From IMG/VR virus record IMGVR_UViG_3300025929_000014, positions 41,787 to 105,786 of that record: DNA of 64,000 nucleotides, one strand, 5' to 3'. The stretch is from a virus. This document shows positions 7,229 through 53,310 of this stretch, piece after piece (positions within the stretch are counted from its first letter, which is position 1; every line of letters begins with the position of its first letter). Position numbers and translations under genes: made by a program. Below the pieces are notes generated by a model. The model ran no database searches, was not told the DNA's origin, and saw only the letters and a program-made list of their open reading frames with translations.

Positions 7229-8308
7229 ATGGACGAAACATTACCGGGCATTCGCCAGTCAGACATGGGCGCCTACCGCAAATGCCGGCGCTACTGGGAC
7301 TATACGTCCGCTCTGCGCCAGAACCTCCAGCCCGGTGGGCAGGCCATCATCCATTTCTGGTTCGGCACCGGTATGCACTTTGCGCTCGAAGATTTTCACG
7401 GCTTCAATCGCTTCGGCGACCCCCGCCATGCCTTCGCCGCCTATGTGGAAGCCACCCCAGAAGCGCAGCGTCCGCCCAAGTGGGAGGAATATGCCGAGCT
7501 GGCGCCATCCATGCTCGCCTACTATCTGGAGAGCTGGCTGCCGCAGCGCAGCGAATACGACACGCTCTGGGTAGCAGGAAAGCCGCAGCTGGAGGTCAGC
7601 TGGAAGCTGCCCCTGGCCGGTCTTGACCATCCGGTGTCGGGTACGTTCGACCGTCTGGTAACCGATCCCTACGGCCGGCTCTGGATCATGGACTGGAAGA
7701 TGATGGCCACTATCGAGACGGCCAAGCTGGACAACGACTTTCAGGTTACTACCTATTTATGGGCAGCCGAGCAACTCTACGGCAAGGTCGAGGGCCTGAT
7801 CTACGTGCAGTTCAAGAAGGTGGTGCCCAGAGGCCCGGAATGGCTGGAGAAGAGCGGGCGCTTTAGCATGGCGACCAGCGCGCCCGTTTCGTATGGCTCG
7901 TTTGTTGCATCCTTGAAACATCGCTTTGGCACTGTGCCGTCCGAGTATCAGGCGCATCTTAACAAGCTGGCGATGCTGGAGGATGGCGACGGCGACCTCT
8001 TTATCCGGCGCACGCTGGTGCGGCGCAACCGTAACGCGCTCACCCTGCACGGCCAGCACGTCACCGCCCAGGCCCGCGAGATGACCTATCCGCATCTGGC
8101 CATCTATCCCAATCCCACCAAGGACTGTGGCTACTGCCCGTTTCGGGCACCCTGCCTGGCCGCCGATGACGGCGCCGACGAGGCATATCTGCTCCAGGAA
8201 AACTTTGTGAGTAGGAATACCGCAGATGACTGGCGGGACCGCATCAAGTGGCCCGCCGCCAAAGGGGGTGATGTCAATCTACCCGCAGCTCAATTAGCCG
8301 TCGTGTAA
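7229..8308 (+). CDS. PD-(D/E)XK nuclease of RecB/Cas4 type
   Basis: The 359-residue product has the RecB-type nuclease core: an Asp in GTFDRL, then IMDWKMM providing the D-x-K pair, and a Gln-containing helix QVTTYLWAAEQL. An N-terminal Cys (YRKCRRYWDY, near residue 18) and a C-terminal triplet CGYCPFRAPC are placed like the iron-sulfur ligands of Cas4/AddB-like nucleases. It should be a single-strand exonuclease acting with the adjacent Sak4-like ATPase in recombination or DNA end processing. ATG at 7229 is chosen for the GGGGGAG site; a GTG at 7211 is in frame. It overlaps an alternative start of the next gene. Confidence 0.85.
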   Translation: MDETLPGIRQSDMGAYRKCRRYWDYTSALRQNLQPGGQAIIHFWFGTGMHFALEDFHGFNRFGDPRHAFAAYVEATPEAQRPPKWEEYAELAPSMLAYYLESWLPQRSEYDTLWVAGKPQLEVSWKLPLAGLDHPVSGTFDRLVTDPYGRLWIMDWKMMATIETAKLDNDFQVTTYLWAAEQLYGKVEGLIYVQFKKVVPRGPEWLEKSGRFSMATSAPVSYGSFVASLKHRFGTVPSEYQAHLNKLAMLEDGDGDLFIRRTLVRRNRNALTLHGQHVTAQAREMTYPHLAIYPNPTKDCGYCPFRAPCLAADDGADEAYLLQENFVSRNTADDWRDRIKWPAAKGGDVNLPAAQLAVV

Positions 8309-8322
8309 TGAAAGGAACAGCA

Positions 8323-9243
8323 ATGACCACAGAAGCTCCGCCGCTCCCGCCGCCGCCCATAGCGGTGGTAGCGCCCGCACCGCCCATAGCAGCGACCGCG
8401 CCTCCCTTGCCGGCTGCAGCGCCGGCACCCATCCAGCGTCCCTTTACCATCGTGCAGGAAGGCGCGAATCCCAGCGCCTCCGGCCCGCTCAAGATGATGG
8501 TCTATGGCACCTACGGCTCCGGCAAGACTTATCTCGCCGGCACCGCTCAGCAGGTCGAGCAGATGCGCGACGTGCTCTACCTGGACGTGGAGGGTGGCTC
8601 GCGCACCCTGGTCGGGCGGGGCATCGACCGTATACCCTGCCAGAACTTCACCACGCTCAACTGGATTAAGGAGTGGCTCATCCGCCACGCCCAGCTCCGG
8701 GAAGCCGGCAACATCGACGGGCTGCGCAACTGGCAGTCGCAGGTGACCGGTAGCGTGCCGGACCAGCCGCGCCAGTACCGAACGATCATCATCGACTCTC
8801 TCTCCGAGCTGGCCAAGCTGCTGCTGCTCGAACTCTCTGGAGTGAAGATCGGCGCCTCTCACCTGGATGCGCAGATCGATAATCCGCAGAGCGAGGAGTG
8901 GGGGCAGCTCTCTGCCCGCATCAGTCTCCTCGTTCGTACCTTCGTGAACCTGCCGTTCCATATCATCTTCGTGGCGTCGGCCGTCGAGAAGGAAGATGAG
9001 GTCAAGCGCCGCTTCTTCCAGCCGAACTTCAACGGCAAGATGGCGAAGGATGTGCAGGGTTTCCTGGACTGCGTGGCCTACCTCGCCGTGCAGCACAACG
9101 AGGCCGGCGAATCTCAGCGCGTGCTGTCGCTGACGCCGGGCCGCAACTATGACGCCAAGCACCGCTTCACCGGCGCCACCAAAACGCAGATCGCCAACCC
9201 GTCGATGGCCGATATCTTCGCATTGCATACAGGAGGCAAATAA
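8323..9243 (+). CDS. Sak4-like RecA-fold ATPase (AAA_24 type)
   Basis: After a Pro/Ala-rich N-terminal tail (about 45 residues), a RecA-fold core appears: Walker A YGTYGSGKT near residue 62, a strand with VLYLDVEGG, and Walker B TIIIDSLSE near residue 155. The later KEDEVKRR and the region ending in the GATKTQIANPS segment fit phage Sak4/AAA_24 single-strand annealing ATPases. It would promote homologous recombination or annealing on single-stranded DNA. ATG at 8323 has AAAGGA 6 bases upstream; an ATG at 8308 overlaps the previous stop and is also possible. The nuclease upstream and the DUF669-like protein downstream form the usual Sak4 module. Confidence 0.85.
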   Translation: MTTEAPPLPPPPIAVVAPAPPIAATAPPLPAAAPAPIQRPFTIVQEGANPSASGPLKMMVYGTYGSGKTYLAGTAQQVEQMRDVLYLDVEGGSRTLVGRGIDRIPCQNFTTLNWIKEWLIRHAQLREAGNIDGLRNWQSQVTGSVPDQPRQYRTIIIDSLSELAKLLLLELSGVKIGASHLDAQIDNPQSEEWGQLSARISLLVRTFVNLPFHIIFVASAVEKEDEVKRRFFQPNFNGKMAKDVQGFLDCVAYLAVQHNEAGESQRVLSLTPGRNYDAKHRFTGATKTQIANPSMADIFALHTGGK

Positions 9244-9890: not shown

Positions 9891-10499
9891 TTGTCAGGTA
9901 GCAACCTACCACTGATTGGGCTCAAGGGGCATAAAGGCGCCGGCAAGGATTCAGTCGCGAGTATATTGTGCTGCCGGCCCTACAACTTCGTCCGGCGCGC
10001 GTTCGCCGACGAGCTAAAGCGTGAGGTGTACAACGCATTCGGGTACGCCCTGCTGCTCCAGCTCTACGCCAAGGAACAAATAGAGGGCTGCGCCTTCGCC
10101 GACTGGATGGGGTTCCTCGACGCGCATAAATATGATGCGCCGGATGCAGAATACGGCTGGGTGCGTCCCCTGCTGCAGTTCTGGGGCACTGAGTATCGGC
10201 GCCAGCTGTGTCGGGACGATTACTGGCTGCGCAAAATGGAGGCCCTGCTCATGCCCGGCGTGGTGGTGACCGATATCCGCTTTCCCAACGAGGCGGACCT
10301 GGTGCGTAAGGCAGGCGGCTGGATCGTGCATGTCGAGCGCCCCATGGAGGTAACGCCCGATACGCATGCGTCGGAGGCGCTGCTGGATGCCATTGCCGCC
10401 GACTACACGCTCTATAACGACGGCAGCCTGGAGGATCTGCGTACCGAAGCGGTGACGCTGATCCCCTTCTTGCAAGAACAAGAAGGTGTACGTGGATAG
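9891..10499 (+). CDS. Deoxynucleoside monophosphate kinase
   Basis: The 202-residue product has an N-terminal P-loop GHKGAGKDS (residues 13-21) and the phage dNMP-kinase signature of FADELKREV, LLQFWGTEYRRQ and VVTDIRFPNEADLV. It phosphorylates dNMPs to dNDPs for phage DNA synthesis, as T4 gp1 does. The start is TTG at 9891 with an AAGGGGACG site. It follows the terminator and overlaps the HAD gene by 14 bases, so the two are coupled. Confidence 0.88.
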   Translation: MSGSNLPLIGLKGHKGAGKDSVASILCCRPYNFVRRAFADELKREVYNAFGYALLLQLYAKEQIEGCAFADWMGFLDAHKYDAPDAEYGWVRPLLQFWGTEYRRQLCRDDYWLRKMEALLMPGVVVTDIRFPNEADLVRKAGGWIVHVERPMEVTPDTHASEALLDAIAADYTLYNDGSLEDLRTEAVTLIPFLQEQEGVRG

Positions 10500-11220: not shown

Positions 11221-11504
11221 ACAAGTTTTTACAGTTCGTGGGTGTGATTGCGCTCATGTTTGGCGCCTATATCTTGATGGGCTTCGCCGTACAGCAGCTC
11301 TGGGGTTGGTTCGTCGTCCCGTTCTTTCATCTTAGCGCAATCGGCATCGCCGAAGCCCTGGGGTTGACACTGCTCGGCTCTGCCGCCTCGAACTTCAACC
11401 CGATCAAGAGCGGTGATTTCTCGGCAAGGTTCTTGGTTCTTCTGATGATTTTCCGCCCGGCAGGCATCCTGGCCACCGGCTTTCTCCTGCACCTGTTCCT
11501 GTAA
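11217..11504 (+). CDS. Small membrane protein (95 aa)
   Basis: Three hydrophobic segments are visible: residues 5-30 (FVGVIALMFGAYILMGFAV), about 38-60, and 75-95 near the C-terminus. The protein should span the inner membrane. It overlaps the HAD gene by 4 bases (ATGA) and its TAA overlaps the polymerase ATG by one base. The role is unknown. Its tight coupling to the polymerase suggests it is expressed with replication genes. Confidence 0.7.
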   Translation: MNKFLQFVGVIALMFGAYILMGFAVQQLWGWFVVPFFHLSAIGIAEALGLTLLGSAASNFNPIKSGDFSARFLVLLMIFRPAGILATGFLLHLFL

Positions 11505-14200
11505 TGAGTACCTGCGCTGACTGCCCCTACAAAGGTGACTCCTGCGGCTTTCGCGGACCCATCGACGCCCCCGTCGTGATCGTGGGCGAGGCGCCCAGCT
11601 TCAACGACCTGGCTGCCGGGAAACCGTTCTCCGGTGATGCCGGTCAGCTGCTCAAGGGCGTCATCGCGGCCGCAGGTTATGGCGACCTGCCCATTCTGTA
11701 CACCAATGCCATGGTCTGCAAGCCGGACTTTTCCGATGAGCCGTTCGCCAAAGGCATTGCGGCCTGTCGGATGCGCCTCTTGGCGGAAGTGAACATGTAT
11801 CCCCGCAGGATGGTGATCGCTCTGGGCACCAGCGCACTGCGCGGCCTTATTGGAGGTGCTGGCGAGGATACCAAGCTCAGGGGCCAGTTCCTGAAGCTCT
11901 TCAACGGCACGCCCCTGATGGTCACCTATCGTCCAGGCGCCGTGTTGCGTGCCGTCGGCTATTACCGCCACTTTGCGCGCGATATACGCCGGGCGCTGGC
12001 GGTTGGCGCCGGTGAGCCCCGTCCAGATCCGGGCGAGACGCAGCATGTCGTGCTCGATGCGGCCGGCACACGCGCCCTGGTGCCGAACCTGCTCGCTCTG
12101 CCGCATGGACAGCTGGTGGCATTTGACGTGGAGACTACCGGTCTCAATCCGCGCCTGAACAAAGTAACGTTTCTGGGTATCTCCTACGAGCCGCACCATA
12201 CCTTCATCATCCCGGCCGCGCATATCCCCTTGCTGGCGCCCGCCATGCTGGGCGCGAATGCGCGCTGGGTCGGCCACAACGTCCAGTTCGACGTGAAGTT
12301 CTTGCAGGCGGCCGGCCTCGACGTGCCGCTCCATCACGATACACAGATTATGTCGTATTGCCTGGATGAAGTCCCTGGCGGGCATGGGCTCAAGGCGTTG
12401 GCCAACGAGCACCTGGGCACCAACGACTACGAGGCGGCGCTGGATGTCTATAAGAAGAAGCACGGCATCGTCGGCGACTACAGCCAGATCCCCAACGAGA
12501 TCCTACTGCCCTATCTGGCGATGGATGCCGACTACACGCTGCGCCTGGCGAACCTGCTCCTGCCCCAGGTGGAGGCCCAGCCGGACCTGAAGCACCTCTA
12601 CTATAACACGCTGCTGCCGGCGACCCGCGCGCTCCTCAAAGTGGAGGCTGCCGGGCTCTGGATGGATCCTGAGCGGACTGAACTTGCTCGCGCGTCCATT
12701 ACGGTGGAGCGGGATAACCGGCTGGCCGAGCTGGAGGATCTGGCCTACGGCATCTGGGATACGGAAGCCTATCGTCGGGATACGGGGTCCAGGGCGGGCG
12801 TTAAGGGGCCGTCCGCCGCGCAGGTCGCGCACATCAGTTCGACGGATAAGAAGAAGATCGACTGGATGCTGAAACGTCTGGAGCTGGGCTATGTGCTCCC
12901 CAGCCTGCAGGAGAAGGCGCTGCGCGATGCCATAGCCGCCCTACCGACAGATCGTGTGGCAGGCCACTTCCTGCAGGTGTTGCAGGGCCTGCGCATGGCC
13001 GATAAGGAGCTAAAAGCGCTCAGGAAGGAAGAGCATACGGATAAGGAGGCGATAGACGCCGCCAATGACCTCAAGACGCGTGCCAAGGCGATCTTCGACT
13101 CCTGGGAGCATGCCTACTGGAAGCCGGCCGAGTATCAAGCCGAACGCGAGACCCGCACGGCCGTAGACTTCACGCCGGGCAGCCCGGCACAGGTCTTGTG
13201 GCTGCTCAAGAAGATGGGTATTCCGGTCTCCAATACGCAGGAAGACACCATCAAAGGGTATGCGGCGACAGTGCCCTTTATCGAATCGCTACTGGGCTAT
13301 CGTGGCGCCGTCAAGTCGCTGGGCACCTACGTGGATGCCATTTCGGAGATCGTAGCCAAAGAGCCGGACGGTCGGGTGCATGCCACCTTCCGCTTGACGA
13401 CCGTCGTCACCGGGCGGCTCTCATCGGCCGAGCCCAACCTGCAGAATATCCCACGAGATCCGATGTTGCGGGGTATGTTCGGGGCGCCACCAGGACGCAT
13501 CCTGGTGGAGGCCGATCTCTCGCAGGCCGAGCTGCGGGTGCTGGCCCATCTCTCTGGTGATGCCTTCTTGCGCCAGGTCTATGCCGAAGGGCGCGATCTG
13601 CACAGCGAAATGGCGGCCAGCGTCTTCGGGCCAAACTTCACGCCGGAGCAGCGCACCAAGACCAAGATCCTGAACTTCGGCGTGATCTACGGCATGAGCG
13701 CGCATTCACTCTCCGCTCAGTTCGAGATGCCCCTCAAAGAGGCGGAAGGCATCATCACCCGCTGGTATGAGCGGGTGCCGCAAGCCAAAGCCTACCTGGA
13801 AGCCTGCCGGCAGGCGCCGCTCAAGGGGCATGTGCTGACCACGCCGTTTGGCCGGCGCCGTCGGTACGGGCTGATTACCAACGAGAACATGGATGCCGTC
13901 CAGCGCGAGGCCACGAACTACGCCATCCAATCGACGGCCAGCGACATTGCGCTCCATGCTGCTATCGTGGTGCAGCCCCAGCTGCCGGCGCTGGACGCCT
14001 TCATCGTCAATATCGTCCACGACTCCATTCTGGTGGAGTGCCCCAATGACGCCCAAACGCCCAACCTGGTCGCTCGCCTTCTGGTGGAGACCATGCGGCG
14101 TATCCCCGCCGAGCGTATCGGCTTTACGGTCCCCATGGATGCCGACGCCAAGATTGGCCGCCATTGGGGGCAGATGCAGAAATGGAAGGAGCAAGGGTGA
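11504..14200 (+). CDS. Uracil-DNA glycosylase domain fused to family A DNA polymerase
   Basis: An 898-residue fusion. Residues 1-150 are a family 4/5-type UDG: CADC (4-7), VGEAPSFNDLAAGKPFSGDAG near 27-47, VCKP near 73 and a further Cys about 15 residues on, matching the four iron-sulfur ligands. Residues 200-365 are a 3'-5' exonuclease: ExoI VAFDVETTG (D208, E210), ExoII GHNVQFD, ExoIII YLAMDADYT. The polymerase domain (about 550-898) has motif A EADLSQAELR (D671), motif B KTKILNFGVIYG (Phe kept near 725) and motif C VHDS (D840). All catalytic residues are present. The UDG part could excise uracil or keep the polymerase off uracil-containing DNA. It is the replicative polymerase candidate. 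A GTGA overlap couples it to the RNA ligase. Confidence 0.92.
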   Translation: MSTCADCPYKGDSCGFRGPIDAPVVIVGEAPSFNDLAAGKPFSGDAGQLLKGVIAAAGYGDLPILYTNAMVCKPDFSDEPFAKGIAACRMRLLAEVNMYPRRMVIALGTSALRGLIGGAGEDTKLRGQFLKLFNGTPLMVTYRPGAVLRAVGYYRHFARDIRRALAVGAGEPRPDPGETQHVVLDAAGTRALVPNLLALPHGQLVAFDVETTGLNPRLNKVTFLGISYEPHHTFIIPAAHIPLLAPAMLGANARWVGHNVQFDVKFLQAAGLDVPLHHDTQIMSYCLDEVPGGHGLKALANEHLGTNDYEAALDVYKKKHGIVGDYSQIPNEILLPYLAMDADYTLRLANLLLPQVEAQPDLKHLYYNTLLPATRALLKVEAAGLWMDPERTELARASITVERDNRLAELEDLAYGIWDTEAYRRDTGSRAGVKGPSAAQVAHISSTDKKKIDWMLKRLELGYVLPSLQEKALRDAIAALPTDRVAGHFLQVLQGLRMADKELKALRKEEHTDKEAIDAANDLKTRAKAIFDSWEHAYWKPAEYQAERETRTAVDFTPGSPAQVLWLLKKMGIPVSNTQEDTIKGYAATVPFIESLLGYRGAVKSLGTYVDAISEIVAKEPDGRVHATFRLTTVVTGRLSSAEPNLQNIPRDPMLRGMFGAPPGRILVEADLSQAELRVLAHLSGDAFLRQVYAEGRDLHSEMAASVFGPNFTPEQRTKTKILNFGVIYGMSAHSLSAQFEMPLKEAEGIITRWYERVPQAKAYLEACRQAPLKGHVLTTPFGRRRRYGLITNENMDAVQREATNYAIQSTASDIALHAAIVVQPQLPALDAFIVNIVHDSILVECPNDAQTPNLVARLLVETMRRIPAERIGFTVPMDADAKIGRHWGQMQKWKEQG

Positions 14201-15261
14201 GCAGTTTTGAGGTCAAGGTCTACCCCATAGAGCTGCACCCGCACGAGAACGCGGATGCGCTTGAAATCGGCCGTATACCAGGCCAGGATTATCAGTTTGT
14301 TGTGCGCAAGGGCCAGTTCGTGGACGGCGATCTCTTTGTCTATATCCCCGAACAGGCGGTGCTTCCGCAGGATCTCATCGAGGGTATGGGTTTAACCGGA
14401 ATGTTGCACGGCAGCAACAAAAACCGGGTGAAGCCGATTCGCCTGCGCGGCGTATTGAGCCAGGGTCTGGCGCATAGGCCGGTTGTCTGGCCTCCCGACT
14501 GGGAGCTGGGCATGGACGTTGGCGACGAGCTGGGCATCACCAAGTATGAGCCGGTTGTCCCCACGCATCTGGAGGGGAGGGTCAAGCCGGCACCTAACCT
14601 ACCGCGTGCGCCGGGCGGATCGCTCTTCCAGGGCTACACCGACATCGACAACATCAAGAAGTTTCGCGATGTCCTGCAGCCTGGTGAGCTGGTCTATGTG
14701 ACGGAGAAGCTCCATGGCACCTGCCTTCTGGTCGGCAGCCTGTGTGGCGAGCGGGTGGTTTCCAGCCTGGGGTTGGCCCGGCGTGGCTACATGCTGGAAG
14801 ACGACGGCAACGTCTACTGGGAGACGGCCAAACGCTACGAGCTGCACGACAAGCTGGAGATGATGCTGAAGAGCAAGGGCTGCCAGCAGGGCATGATCTT
14901 TGGCGAGATCATCGGCGTGCAGGATCTCAAGTATGGGCACACGGACGGTCAGACGAGCTTTCAGGCGTTTGACTTACTCCTGGAGGAGTCATATGGCTAC
15001 CAGCCGTATTATGAGTTCCTGCCGCGTTGTCTGAGCTATGGTATCCCCACCGTGCCCCTGCTCTTTATCGGTCCTTATGCGCCGGACCACATCCTCTCGC
15101 TGACGGCCGGCAGCAGTTCGCTCGCTGATGTGCGTCATGTCCGGGAGGGCGTGGTCATTCGTCCAGCAGCCGAGCGCCGCCATCCCGCCTTGGGGCGGGT
15201 GATTCTGAAGAGCATCAATCCCGACTATCTCACGCGCAAGAATGGCAGCGAGTTTCACTGA
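14197..15261 (+). CDS. RNA ligase (DraRnl/Rnl5-like)
   Basis: The 354-residue product has an N-terminal OB-like domain (about 1-130) and then a nucleotidyltransferase domain: motif I TEKLHGTCLLV (lysine near residue 171), motif III-like FQAFDLLLEE, motif IV EGVVIRP and motif V GRVILKSIN. The KLHG form of the motif and the domain order resemble Deinococcus RNA ligase (Rnl5). Such enzymes use ATP to seal 3'-OH/5'-phosphate breaks in RNA duplexes. In phages RNA ligases often repair tRNAs cut by host anticodon nucleases. The GTG start at 14197 overlaps the polymerase stop. Confidence 0.87.
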   Translation: MSSFEVKVYPIELHPHENADALEIGRIPGQDYQFVVRKGQFVDGDLFVYIPEQAVLPQDLIEGMGLTGMLHGSNKNRVKPIRLRGVLSQGLAHRPVVWPPDWELGMDVGDELGITKYEPVVPTHLEGRVKPAPNLPRAPGGSLFQGYTDIDNIKKFRDVLQPGELVYVTEKLHGTCLLVGSLCGERVVSSLGLARRGYMLEDDGNVYWETAKRYELHDKLEMMLKSKGCQQGMIFGEIIGVQDLKYGHTDGQTSFQAFDLLLEESYGYQPYYEFLPRCLSYGIPTVPLLFIGPYAPDHILSLTAGSSSLADVRHVREGVVIRPAAERRHPALGRVILKSINPDYLTRKNGSEFH

Positions 15262-15578
15262 TGATCGAGATACAACCACAGCCCGGCAGCCTCTACTATC
15301 AAACCTTTACTACCGGAGGGACCACTGTGCCCGCAGAAACGCCGAAGACCAAGCGCCTGGAATATGAGCTGAAGCTCTCGATCTCCAGGGACGACATCCC
15401 AGCCGACGACATCGTGGAGGCCCGCAATCAGATAGAGCGCTGGATCTACGAGGGCATGCAGCTCTTGGCGGACCATTTCACTATCGATCCCGACGACACG
15501 GATTTCGTGGATGAGCAGTGTCATGTTGATAAGACCTACATCAACGAGCTGTCGCTCAAGCAAACCTGGGGCGAGTAA
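15261..15578 (+). CDS. Hypothetical protein (105 aa)
   Basis: The gene starts with ATG overlapping the ligase stop and ends with TAA overlapping the next ATG. The product has a flexible N-terminal 30 residues, a beta strand (RLEYELKLSIS), a helix, and an acidic C-terminus. No family was recognised. Confidence 0.7.
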   Translation: MIEIQPQPGSLYYQTFTTGGTTVPAETPKTKRLEYELKLSISRDDIPADDIVEARNQIERWIYEGMQLLADHFTIDPDDTDFVDEQCHVDKTYINELSLKQTWGE

Positions 15579-15778: not shown

Positions 15779-16058
15779 CCAGGAACTGTTCACGGCGCTG
15801 CAGGTGATGTTGCGCTCGGCAGTGGAGATCTGCCGTCAGAGCGCTGAAGACATTAGTCCTGTTCCTGCTTCGCGTGCGTTGGTTGATGTATTGGTGCAAG
15901 CCTCATTGCTGCCGGAGTTTGATACGCCTATCTTCAGCGCCTTGAAGCTGCTCGATGTCGCCTGGCATGAGATTTCTCCAAACAGTATTGATTTTGCCGG
16001 TATGGAGGTGCTTTGCACCGCCCTCGCCGATCTCCTGGAGGTGCAGCGTGGCCGCTAA
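15759..16058 (+). CDS. Hypothetical protein (99 aa)
   Basis: ATG at 15759 follows GGGGGAGAG. The product is helical and Leu/Ala-rich with several acidic residues. No motif was recognised. It overlaps the thyX start by 11 bases. Confidence 0.65.
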   Translation: MTQILSDQELFTALQVMLRSAVEICRQSAEDISPVPASRALVDVLVQASLLPEFDTPIFSALKLLDVAWHEISPNSIDFAGMEVLCTALADLLEVQRGR

Positions 16059-16824
16059 GGTCTATATTGTCGGTCGTCCATATATCGACTGGTGGGCCGT
16101 CTCTAACTTCCTTAAAGCGGAGACGGGCGACGGGCTCTCCTGGCAACGTGATGCGGAAGAGGGCGACGAGATTCGTACTGTCTATGATGGGCAGGAGCTG
16201 TGCGAGCTGGCTGGTCGTGTCTGTTATATGAGCTTTGGTGAGAGCCAGGGGCGTAAGACCAACAAGCACTACCTAGACAACATACTGTCCTCCGGGCATG
16301 GGTCGGTGCTGGAGCATGCCAACTGGAACGTGATCGTCACCGGCATCAGCCGCACCTGCAGCCACGAGTTGGTGCGGCACCGGGCCGGCTGGAGCTACTC
16401 GCAGCTCTCGCAGCGCTATGTGGATGAGTCACAGGTTGAAGTCGTAATGCCGTCCGCTATCGCGTCGCTGGGGCGTGACGCGCAGCGTGCCTGGGAAGCA
16501 GATATGCGCGATGCGCGTGAAACCTATAAGCATTGGGCCGATGTGCTCCAGAAGGCGCAACCGGCCGATATGACGACACGCGAGGCCCGCTTGGCTGCCC
16601 GTCAGGCTGCTCGCTCGGTGCTCCCCAACGCGACGGAGACCAAGATCTTCATCACCGCTAACTGTCGGGCGCTCCGTCATTTTTTCACTCTGCGGGGATC
16701 CCTGGCGGCCGAGCCGGAGATTCGCGCCCTGGCACATCAATGGCTTCCGCTGATGCACAAAGAGAGCCCGCATCTCTTCGGTGATCTGCAGATCGTGGAT
16801 GGGGCGATCACATGCGTCTCCTAG
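16048..16824 (+). CDS. thyX: Flavin-dependent thymidylate synthase
   Basis: The 258-residue product is a ThyX. It carries the signature ELVRHRAGWSYSQLSQRYVDE around residues 107-127, HGSVLEH near 87, and NCRALRHFF plus LRGSLAAEPEIR in the C-terminal half. ThyX makes dTMP from dUMP using methylene-tetrahydrofolate, FAD and NADPH. In the signature there are eight rather than seven residues between RHR and the conserved Ser, as in some other ThyX groups. The GTG start at 16048 follows CTGGAGGTGC. Together with the dNMP kinase and MazG-like protein it supplies dNTPs for phage DNA. Confidence 0.95.
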   Translation: MAAKVYIVGRPYIDWWAVSNFLKAETGDGLSWQRDAEEGDEIRTVYDGQELCELAGRVCYMSFGESQGRKTNKHYLDNILSSGHGSVLEHANWNVIVTGISRTCSHELVRHRAGWSYSQLSQRYVDESQVEVVMPSAIASLGRDAQRAWEADMRDARETYKHWADVLQKAQPADMTTREARLAARQAARSVLPNATETKIFITANCRALRHFFTLRGSLAAEPEIRALAHQWLPLMHKESPHLFGDLQIVDGAITCVS

Positions 16825-53235: not shown

Positions 53236-53310
53236 GGATGGATAGCTCAGGGGTGAGAGCGCCGGATTCTAAACCGAAGGGCGCAGGTTCGAGTCCTGCT
53301 CCATTCGCCA
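53236..53310 (+). tRNA. tRNA-like gene 2 (anticodon position reads CTA, amber type)
   Basis: A 75-base cloverleaf: acceptor GGATGGA/TCCATTC (one G-U), D arm GCTC/GAGC with AGGGGTGA loop, T arm GCAGG-TTCGAGT-CCTGC (perfect), discriminator G and encoded CCA. The anticodon arm CCGGA-TTCTAAA-CCGAA does not pair as it should; shifting by one base gives three pairs and an 8-base loop ATTCTAAA. With T33 and A37 kept, the anticodon is CTA, reading UAG. It looks as if one base at position 39 were missing. Confidence 0.65.

Follow-up and report, generated by a model that had tools for sequence, protein, structure and literature searches.

What does a uracil-DNA glycosylase (UDG) domain do at the front of a phage DNA polymerase: does it remove uracil, sense it without cutting, or hold the polymerase on DNA? 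The question is raised by a gene in a 64,000-nucleotide stretch of DNA (the window) taken from a virus record of 105,786 bases (IMG/VR IMGVR_UViG_3300025929_000014). Phage fusions of this kind are already known, from SPO1, the relatives of PaBG and the phiLo polymerase. The polymerases of Shbh1 and SPO1 carry an N-terminal UDG domain, for which a processivity role has been cited (PMC5135824), and a role in repair has been suggested for the UDG-exonuclease-polymerase proteins of the Lupandier group, 11 phages that include PaBG (PMC7412058). Elsewhere, vaccinia UNG acts in replication (PMC10253040) and template uracil stalls the archaeal family B polymerases (PMC3950489).

A survey of active-site residues makes the choice between repair and processivity for a fused UDG testable. 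The natural fusions span the states that separate repair, sensing and tethering: a full pocket, a pocket without the Fe-S cysteines, and the cysteines without a pocket. In the window protein the cysteines are present and the residue that sets cutting apart from binding has been lost, whilst the T5 polymerase seemingly carries a pocket-less remnant.

Gene and domain architecture

The gene is a single open frame of 898 codons on the + strand, with an ATG at 11504 and a stop codon ending at 14200. The original prediction, made from the letters of the sequence, had this frame joining a UDG to an exonuclease-polymerase; its coordinates were exact and three Pfam domains lie along the protein, all above their curated cut-offs: UDG (PF03167; residues 18-150, E 8.9e-17), DNA_pol_A_exo1 (residues 187-356, E 4.2e-17) and DNA_pol_A (residues 553-890, E 4.7e-78). 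The features of the gene are as follows.

11504..14200, + strand: UDG-exonuclease-family A DNA polymerase (three Pfam domains over cut-off; full-length AF2 model with pLDDT 89.3 and pTM 0.84)
11504..12013, + strand: UDG domain, residues 1-170, family 4 fold (AF2 and Foldseek)
11513..11524, + strand: C4-x2-C7, first predicted Fe-S cysteine pair (kept in about 98/110 distinct fusions)
11588..11629, + strand: motif 1 GEAPSFNDLAAGKPF region, Glu29 to Phe42 (alignment to fusions and standalone UDGs)
11606-11608, + strand: Asp35, at a position that is Glu in the family (alignment to fusions and standalone UDGs)
11705..11707, + strand: Asn68, the uracil-binding Asn (T. thermophilus N80), retained (alignment)
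11717-11719, + strand: C72, of the second predicted Fe-S pair (alignment)
11765-11767, + strand: C88, of the second predicted Fe-S pair (alignment)
11930..11932, + strand: Arg143 (codon CGT), at the site of the catalytic His (T. thermophilus H155; alignment)
12062..12571, + strand: 3'-5' exonuclease domain, residues 187-356, with D208/E210/D279/Y337/D341 (PF01612, invariant residues)
13160..14173, + strand: family A polymerase domain, residues 553-890, with D671/K721/Y729/H839/D840 (PF00476, invariant residues, Klenow as best PDB fold match)

All of the catalytic motifs ascribed to the exonuclease-polymerase were indeed found: every exonuclease and polymerase residue listed is present, invariant or nearly so among 72 aligned proteins, and these are the residues that mark a proofreading family A polymerase. 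A PDB fold search with the full-length model gave the Klenow fragment as its best match. The order UDG, exonuclease, family A polymerase in one frame is common to more than 100 viral loci. Taken together, the sequence and fold matches are far from chance and the three-domain architecture is real; the gene product is a proofreading phage DNA polymerase of family A that carries a family 4-type UDG module at its N-terminus.

A structure prediction and fold search of the N-terminus had been recommended as a check, and they place it in the family 4 UDG fold. AlphaFold modelled residues 1-190, with 97 aligned sequences, at a mean pLDDT of 93.4, and in a Foldseek search of the PDB this model was closest to the T. 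maritima UDG (1l9g; E 5.7e-16, TM 0.77) and also matched the phiLo phage polymerase (PDB 9QHS; E 1.8e-8). In phmmer, the family 4 UDGs of T. maritima and T. thermophilus were matched among the PDB sequences, and the NCBIfam family 4 model TIGR00758 scored 70.2 bits, under its cut-off of 125.3. The alignments used for structure models comprised the window protein and the proteins of the fetched loci only. Cysteines expected at 4, 7, about 73 and about 88 lie at C4, C7, C72 and C88, and the domain is predicted on this basis to hold an iron-sulfur cluster.

UdgX proteins trap uracil-DNA covalently by means of a loop His (H109 in M. smegmatis) that follows the Asn and precedes the last cluster Cys. 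The alignment places no such His among residues 68-88 of the window protein, and UdgX-like covalent trapping was rejected on this ground.

An altered pocket

In T. thermophilus UDGa the pocket consists of E41, G42, E47, F54, N80 and H155 (PMC5387724), at whose positions the window protein has Glu29, Ala30, Asp35, Phe42, Asn68 and Arg143. The set Glu29/Glu35/Asn68/His143 thus reads E, D, N, R and is incomplete, the motif 2 His having become Arg143 and the Glu of the motif 1 helix Asp35 in the alignment. The UDG is therefore not as intact as it had seemed in the original prediction, for which a different fold, or the absence of the motif A/B residues from homologues, was to have been fatal: the fold is that of a UDG and most homologues have the residues, whereas the window protein has altered ones.

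These changes are rare. Among 71 aligned close fusions, position 35 is Glu in 71/71 and position 143 is His in 71/71, and only the window protein departs; it also departs from these fusions at G32S and A145G. Every clear standalone family 4 UDG retrieved from bacterial genomes carries both the Glu and the His. The combination of Arg143 and Asp35 was seen on one metagenomic contig.

The effect of such changes can be gauged from the T. thermophilus enzyme, in which H155S lowers k2 from 0.23 to 7.2e-5 per s, about 3,200-fold, and leaves Km nearly unchanged (0.97 to 0.76 uM), and in which E47 lies at C5 of uracil and excludes thymine (PMC5387724). UDG families 2 and 6 lack the motif 2 His, and family 2 cuts nonetheless, slowly (PMC5387724). 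Judged by alignment, the window UDG retains the residues that hold uracil and is without the residue that drives cutting. By analogy with the mutant enzyme it is probably catalytically silent yet folded, and able to bind DNA or uracil.

Survey of UDG-polymerase fusions

Across 110 distinct fusions, the motif 2 His is kept in 99, Glu29 in 92 and Asn68 in 95, with all three retained in 82; Arg at the His position was found in 0/110. Asp35 occurs only where the His has been lost too (4/4 sequences, from about two lineages), and Glu at position 35 without the His is seen in only two fusions. The Fisher p-value computed in this comparison takes no account of kinship and is too strong. The pocket residues E, E, N, H are retained with at most one cluster Cys in seven fusions, and nine, including the window protein, have the full set of four Cys and no more than two of these pocket residues. 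At the level of sequence there is thus a double dissociation, loss of the pocket with the cluster cysteines kept and the reverse both being recurrent. Since nine lineages close to the window protein have a complete pocket, silencing is not the rule of the family.

On the polymerase tree (FastTree, with long branches) several changes of UDG state are needed, their counts being approximate, and some related polymerases have no detectable UDG. Amongst the tree rows without a UDG, L090 and L168 are artefacts of the removal of duplicate UDGs and some others are truncations at contig ends; L046, L075, L116 and L123 are short or degenerate and were not trusted as independent pocket losses. Retention of the pocket with loss of most or all of the cluster cysteines is seen in several lineages (L145, L147, L151, L159, L028, L126 and L129).

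The T5 polymerase

T5 DNA polymerase is a well-studied, processive laboratory model enzyme, and Pfam detects no UDG domain in it. When 14 T5-like N-terminal domains were made into a profile, this could nevertheless be aligned to the C-terminal half of the UDG profile of the fusions (hhalign probability 86%, pairwise E 5e-6); its score of 40.8 exceeds those of 100 column or block shuffles (at most 24.0), of the reversed profile (13.7) and of unrelated slices (at most 18.4). The likeness is confined to this half: the T5-like domains are without a recognisable motif 1 and without the cysteines, and their motif 2 reads SPA or NPA in place of HPA. In the T5 polymerase itself the matching region (L295:9098-9535, alignment A7) has lost the pocket. 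From the profile match, the N-terminal domain of T5 polymerase may be a reduced, pocket-less UDG remnant. A fold search of BFVD with the full model of the window protein returned many phage polymerases at TM 0.66-0.71, compared with 0.57 for Klenow, as would be expected if a UDG-like domain were similarly placed in them, the aligned ranges not being given.

Gene neighbourhood

Around the polymerase gene are an upstream HAD-type hydrolase gene and the following.

7229..8308, + strand: PD-(D/E)XK exonuclease, upstream (PF12705 E 3.8e-19, phrog_1218)
8323..9243, + strand: Sak4-like annealing protein, upstream (PF13479, phrog_124)
9891..10499, + strand: deoxynucleoside monophosphate (dNMP) kinase, upstream (PF21448 E 2.7e-18, phrog_139)
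14197..15261, + strand: RNA ligase, downstream (PF09414 E 1.8e-19)
16048..16824, + strand: ThyX thymidylate synthase, downstream (PF02511 E 8e-53; start codon uncertain, the frame being open from 15955)

The rest of the record encodes a PrimPol-D5 protein, a terminase, a portal-like protein and an integrase. The integrase, of the tyrosine type, and the PrimPol-D5 protein (L104:8603-9796 and L105:17663-19954 of the same virus record) indicate that the phage may be temperate and that it has its own primase-helicase. There is one PolA match on the record, and neither DnaE nor a beta clamp domain was found on its 105.8 kb, which may be incomplete; with one PolA and no DnaE, the PolA is likely to be the replicase. 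An open frame at 100-1176 of the window has a weak match to phrog_947, a phage DNA polymerase processivity factor (E 2.9e-6), and no Pfam or NCBIfam match, and may by this resemblance encode a divergent clamp. At 53236-53310 of the window ARAGORN predicts a gene resembling a tRNA, with an anticodon of two bases; this call is possibly spurious.

The view that the phage cares about uracil in its DNA had been drawn from the presence nearby of ThyX, a dNMP kinase and a MazG-like protein. The first two are there (PF02511 E 8e-53 and PF21448 E 2.7e-18) but the third was not found: PF03819 gave no match, and the open frame at 15261-15578 has no Pfam match. The argument is weak, since the record, possibly incomplete, has no detected MazG, dUTPase, dCMP deaminase, second UDG or AP endonuclease. 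Nor is a strong, conserved link to the nucleotide pool apparent, as within flanks of roughly 4-8 kb ThyX lies near 9 of the 110 fusion loci and a dNMP kinase near 2 of the 110.

Role of the fused UDG

We propose that the module of the window protein is folded, with a predicted iron-sulfur cluster, but that its uracil excision is silenced or strongly weakened, and that it serves as an appendage which binds DNA or uracil without cutting and helps to hold the polymerase; on balance we consider this likely. The His that would stabilise the uracilate leaving group is replaced by Arg143 and the Glu that would exclude thymine from the pocket by Asp35, leaving Glu29, Phe42, Asn68 and, if occupied, the cluster as what would be the binding half of the enzyme. 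Such an appendage could keep the polymerase attached to the template, and perhaps make it pause at template uracil; the apparent persistence of a pocket-less UDG remnant in T5-like polymerases speaks for it. The first suggestion, that the polymerase checks or removes uracil while copying, is plausible for the family as a whole: with Glu, Asn and His retained together in 82/110, the uracil pocket may be functional and linked to the polymerase. Removal is unlikely for the window protein, whose leaving-group His is Arg. The alternative offered with it, a UDG that only senses uracil, would fit this protein better, and we infer that tethering or sensing is likelier here than uracil removal.

The most serious competitor, possible but a good deal less probable, is a purely structural module for DNA binding or processivity in which the pocket is irrelevant, as vaccinia D4 is used in its replication complex. 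Processivity has already been suggested for such domains (PMC5135824) and vaccinia UNG is a processivity factor (PMC10253040); pocket-less relatives with all four Cys recur, T5-like polymerases appear to retain a reduced, pocket-less UDG-like domain, and a search of the record for a beta clamp domain gave none. However, most fusions have a pocket, and seven have kept it after loss of the cluster cysteines, which argues that in the family the pocket is under selection. Glu29, Phe42 and Asn68 are still present in the window protein, and the frame at 100-1176 has its weak match to a processivity factor family (E 2.9e-6).

A more specific form of sensing is doubtful, though conceivable: a family A replicase with a non-cutting read-ahead sensor that binds uracil or, given Asp35, a 5-substituted pyrimidine in the template and pauses, as an independent counterpart of the archaeal family B sensor. 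The possible analogy is with an N-terminal polymerase pocket that senses uracil without cutting (PMC3950489), but both the polymerase family and the pocket are unrelated to those of the window protein.

That the module is an active glycosylase coupled to replication, acting before or behind the polymerase, with Arg143 either standing in for the His or being a sequence error, is unlikely. The full pocket of most fusions (Glu29, Asn68 and His in 82/110) and the repair role proposed for the PaBG polymerase (PMC7412058) speak for it, and a single transition would turn CGT into a His codon. However, loss of the His in H155S costs T. thermophilus UDGa more than three orders of magnitude, a lone read error is improbable given three more departures at conserved sites (G32S, E35D and A145G), and neither an AP endonuclease nor a second UDG was found on the record to complete repair.

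The fused UDG might instead be a functionless leftover in the course of being lost, which we think improbable. Catalytic residues have been lost, some related polymerases have no detectable UDG, and the identity of the window UDG to its relatives is below that expected from the polymerase (rank 7/72). The shortfall, though, is just 4 points, so that overall the domain is changing at a nearly normal pace and not by simple decay, and although the branch is long, at about 1 change per column, the fold, the four Cys and the uracil-binding residues have been retained. A pocket retuned to thymine or a 5-substituted pyrimidine, in phage or host DNA, is very improbable: with Asp35 the side chain that shields the base at C5 is shorter (PMC5387724), and this change is coupled to loss of the His in the four sequences from about two lineages, and PDB 9QHS is entitled 'phiLo family-A DNA polymerase with modified template', but a non-exhaustive scan of the proteins turned up no recognisable gene for pyrimidine hypermodification.

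Relation to known systems

The non-cutting appendage that we favour can be set beside several known proteins. The polymerases of SPO1 and Shbh1, of PaBG and the Lupandier group, and of the Brevundimonas phage MaInes (ON529866) share with the window protein the N-terminal UDG, the 3'-5' exonuclease, the family A polymerase and a similar length. MaInes retains the Glu, Asn and His, whereas the window protein has Asp35 and Arg143; SPO1 retains the His, with the G42 and N80 positions changed and Cys lost, whereas the window protein retains the Asn and Cys. The polymerase of Thermus phage phiLo (PDB 9QHS) is likewise a UDG fused to a family A polymerase, and its UDG matches the window model, but it is longer (1142-1175 aa) and its pocket is intact (GEAPGNDE, TNV, NHPS). 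The T. maritima and T. thermophilus UDGa enzymes have the same fold, the four cluster Cys and the equivalents of Glu41, Phe54 and Asn80, but stand alone and have Glu47 and His155 in place of Asp35 and Arg143. Vaccinia D4 UNG, bound to A20, is also a glycosylase that serves in a replication complex (PMC10253040), but as a separate family 1 protein that is still active. The searchable literature, which covered open-licence papers only, contained no mention of a silenced pocket beside retained cluster residues, of the counts over 110 fusions or of the T5 remnant, and this is weak evidence of novelty.

Other fusions

The scan of genome contigs returned mostly ordinary bacterial Pol I, and a search with the MaInes UDG domain alone as query gave no matches. 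Some of the fusions depart in other ways. In family 2 glycosylases the catalytic Asn lies in motif 1, at a position matched by the Asn of the sequence QENP. This is the motif 1 of the SPO1-like polymerases of L021, L033, L091, L098 and L102, in which the uracil-binding Asn has become Ala or Ser; on these residues, they possibly have a changed base specificity. In one polymerase (L006:858-3257) the UDG is C-terminal (Pfam UDG at 632-776, after DNA_pol_A at 230-597), apparently an independent fusion, and a 395-aa phage protein (L010:1542-2726) has an NTPase-like region followed by a C-terminal UDG domain.
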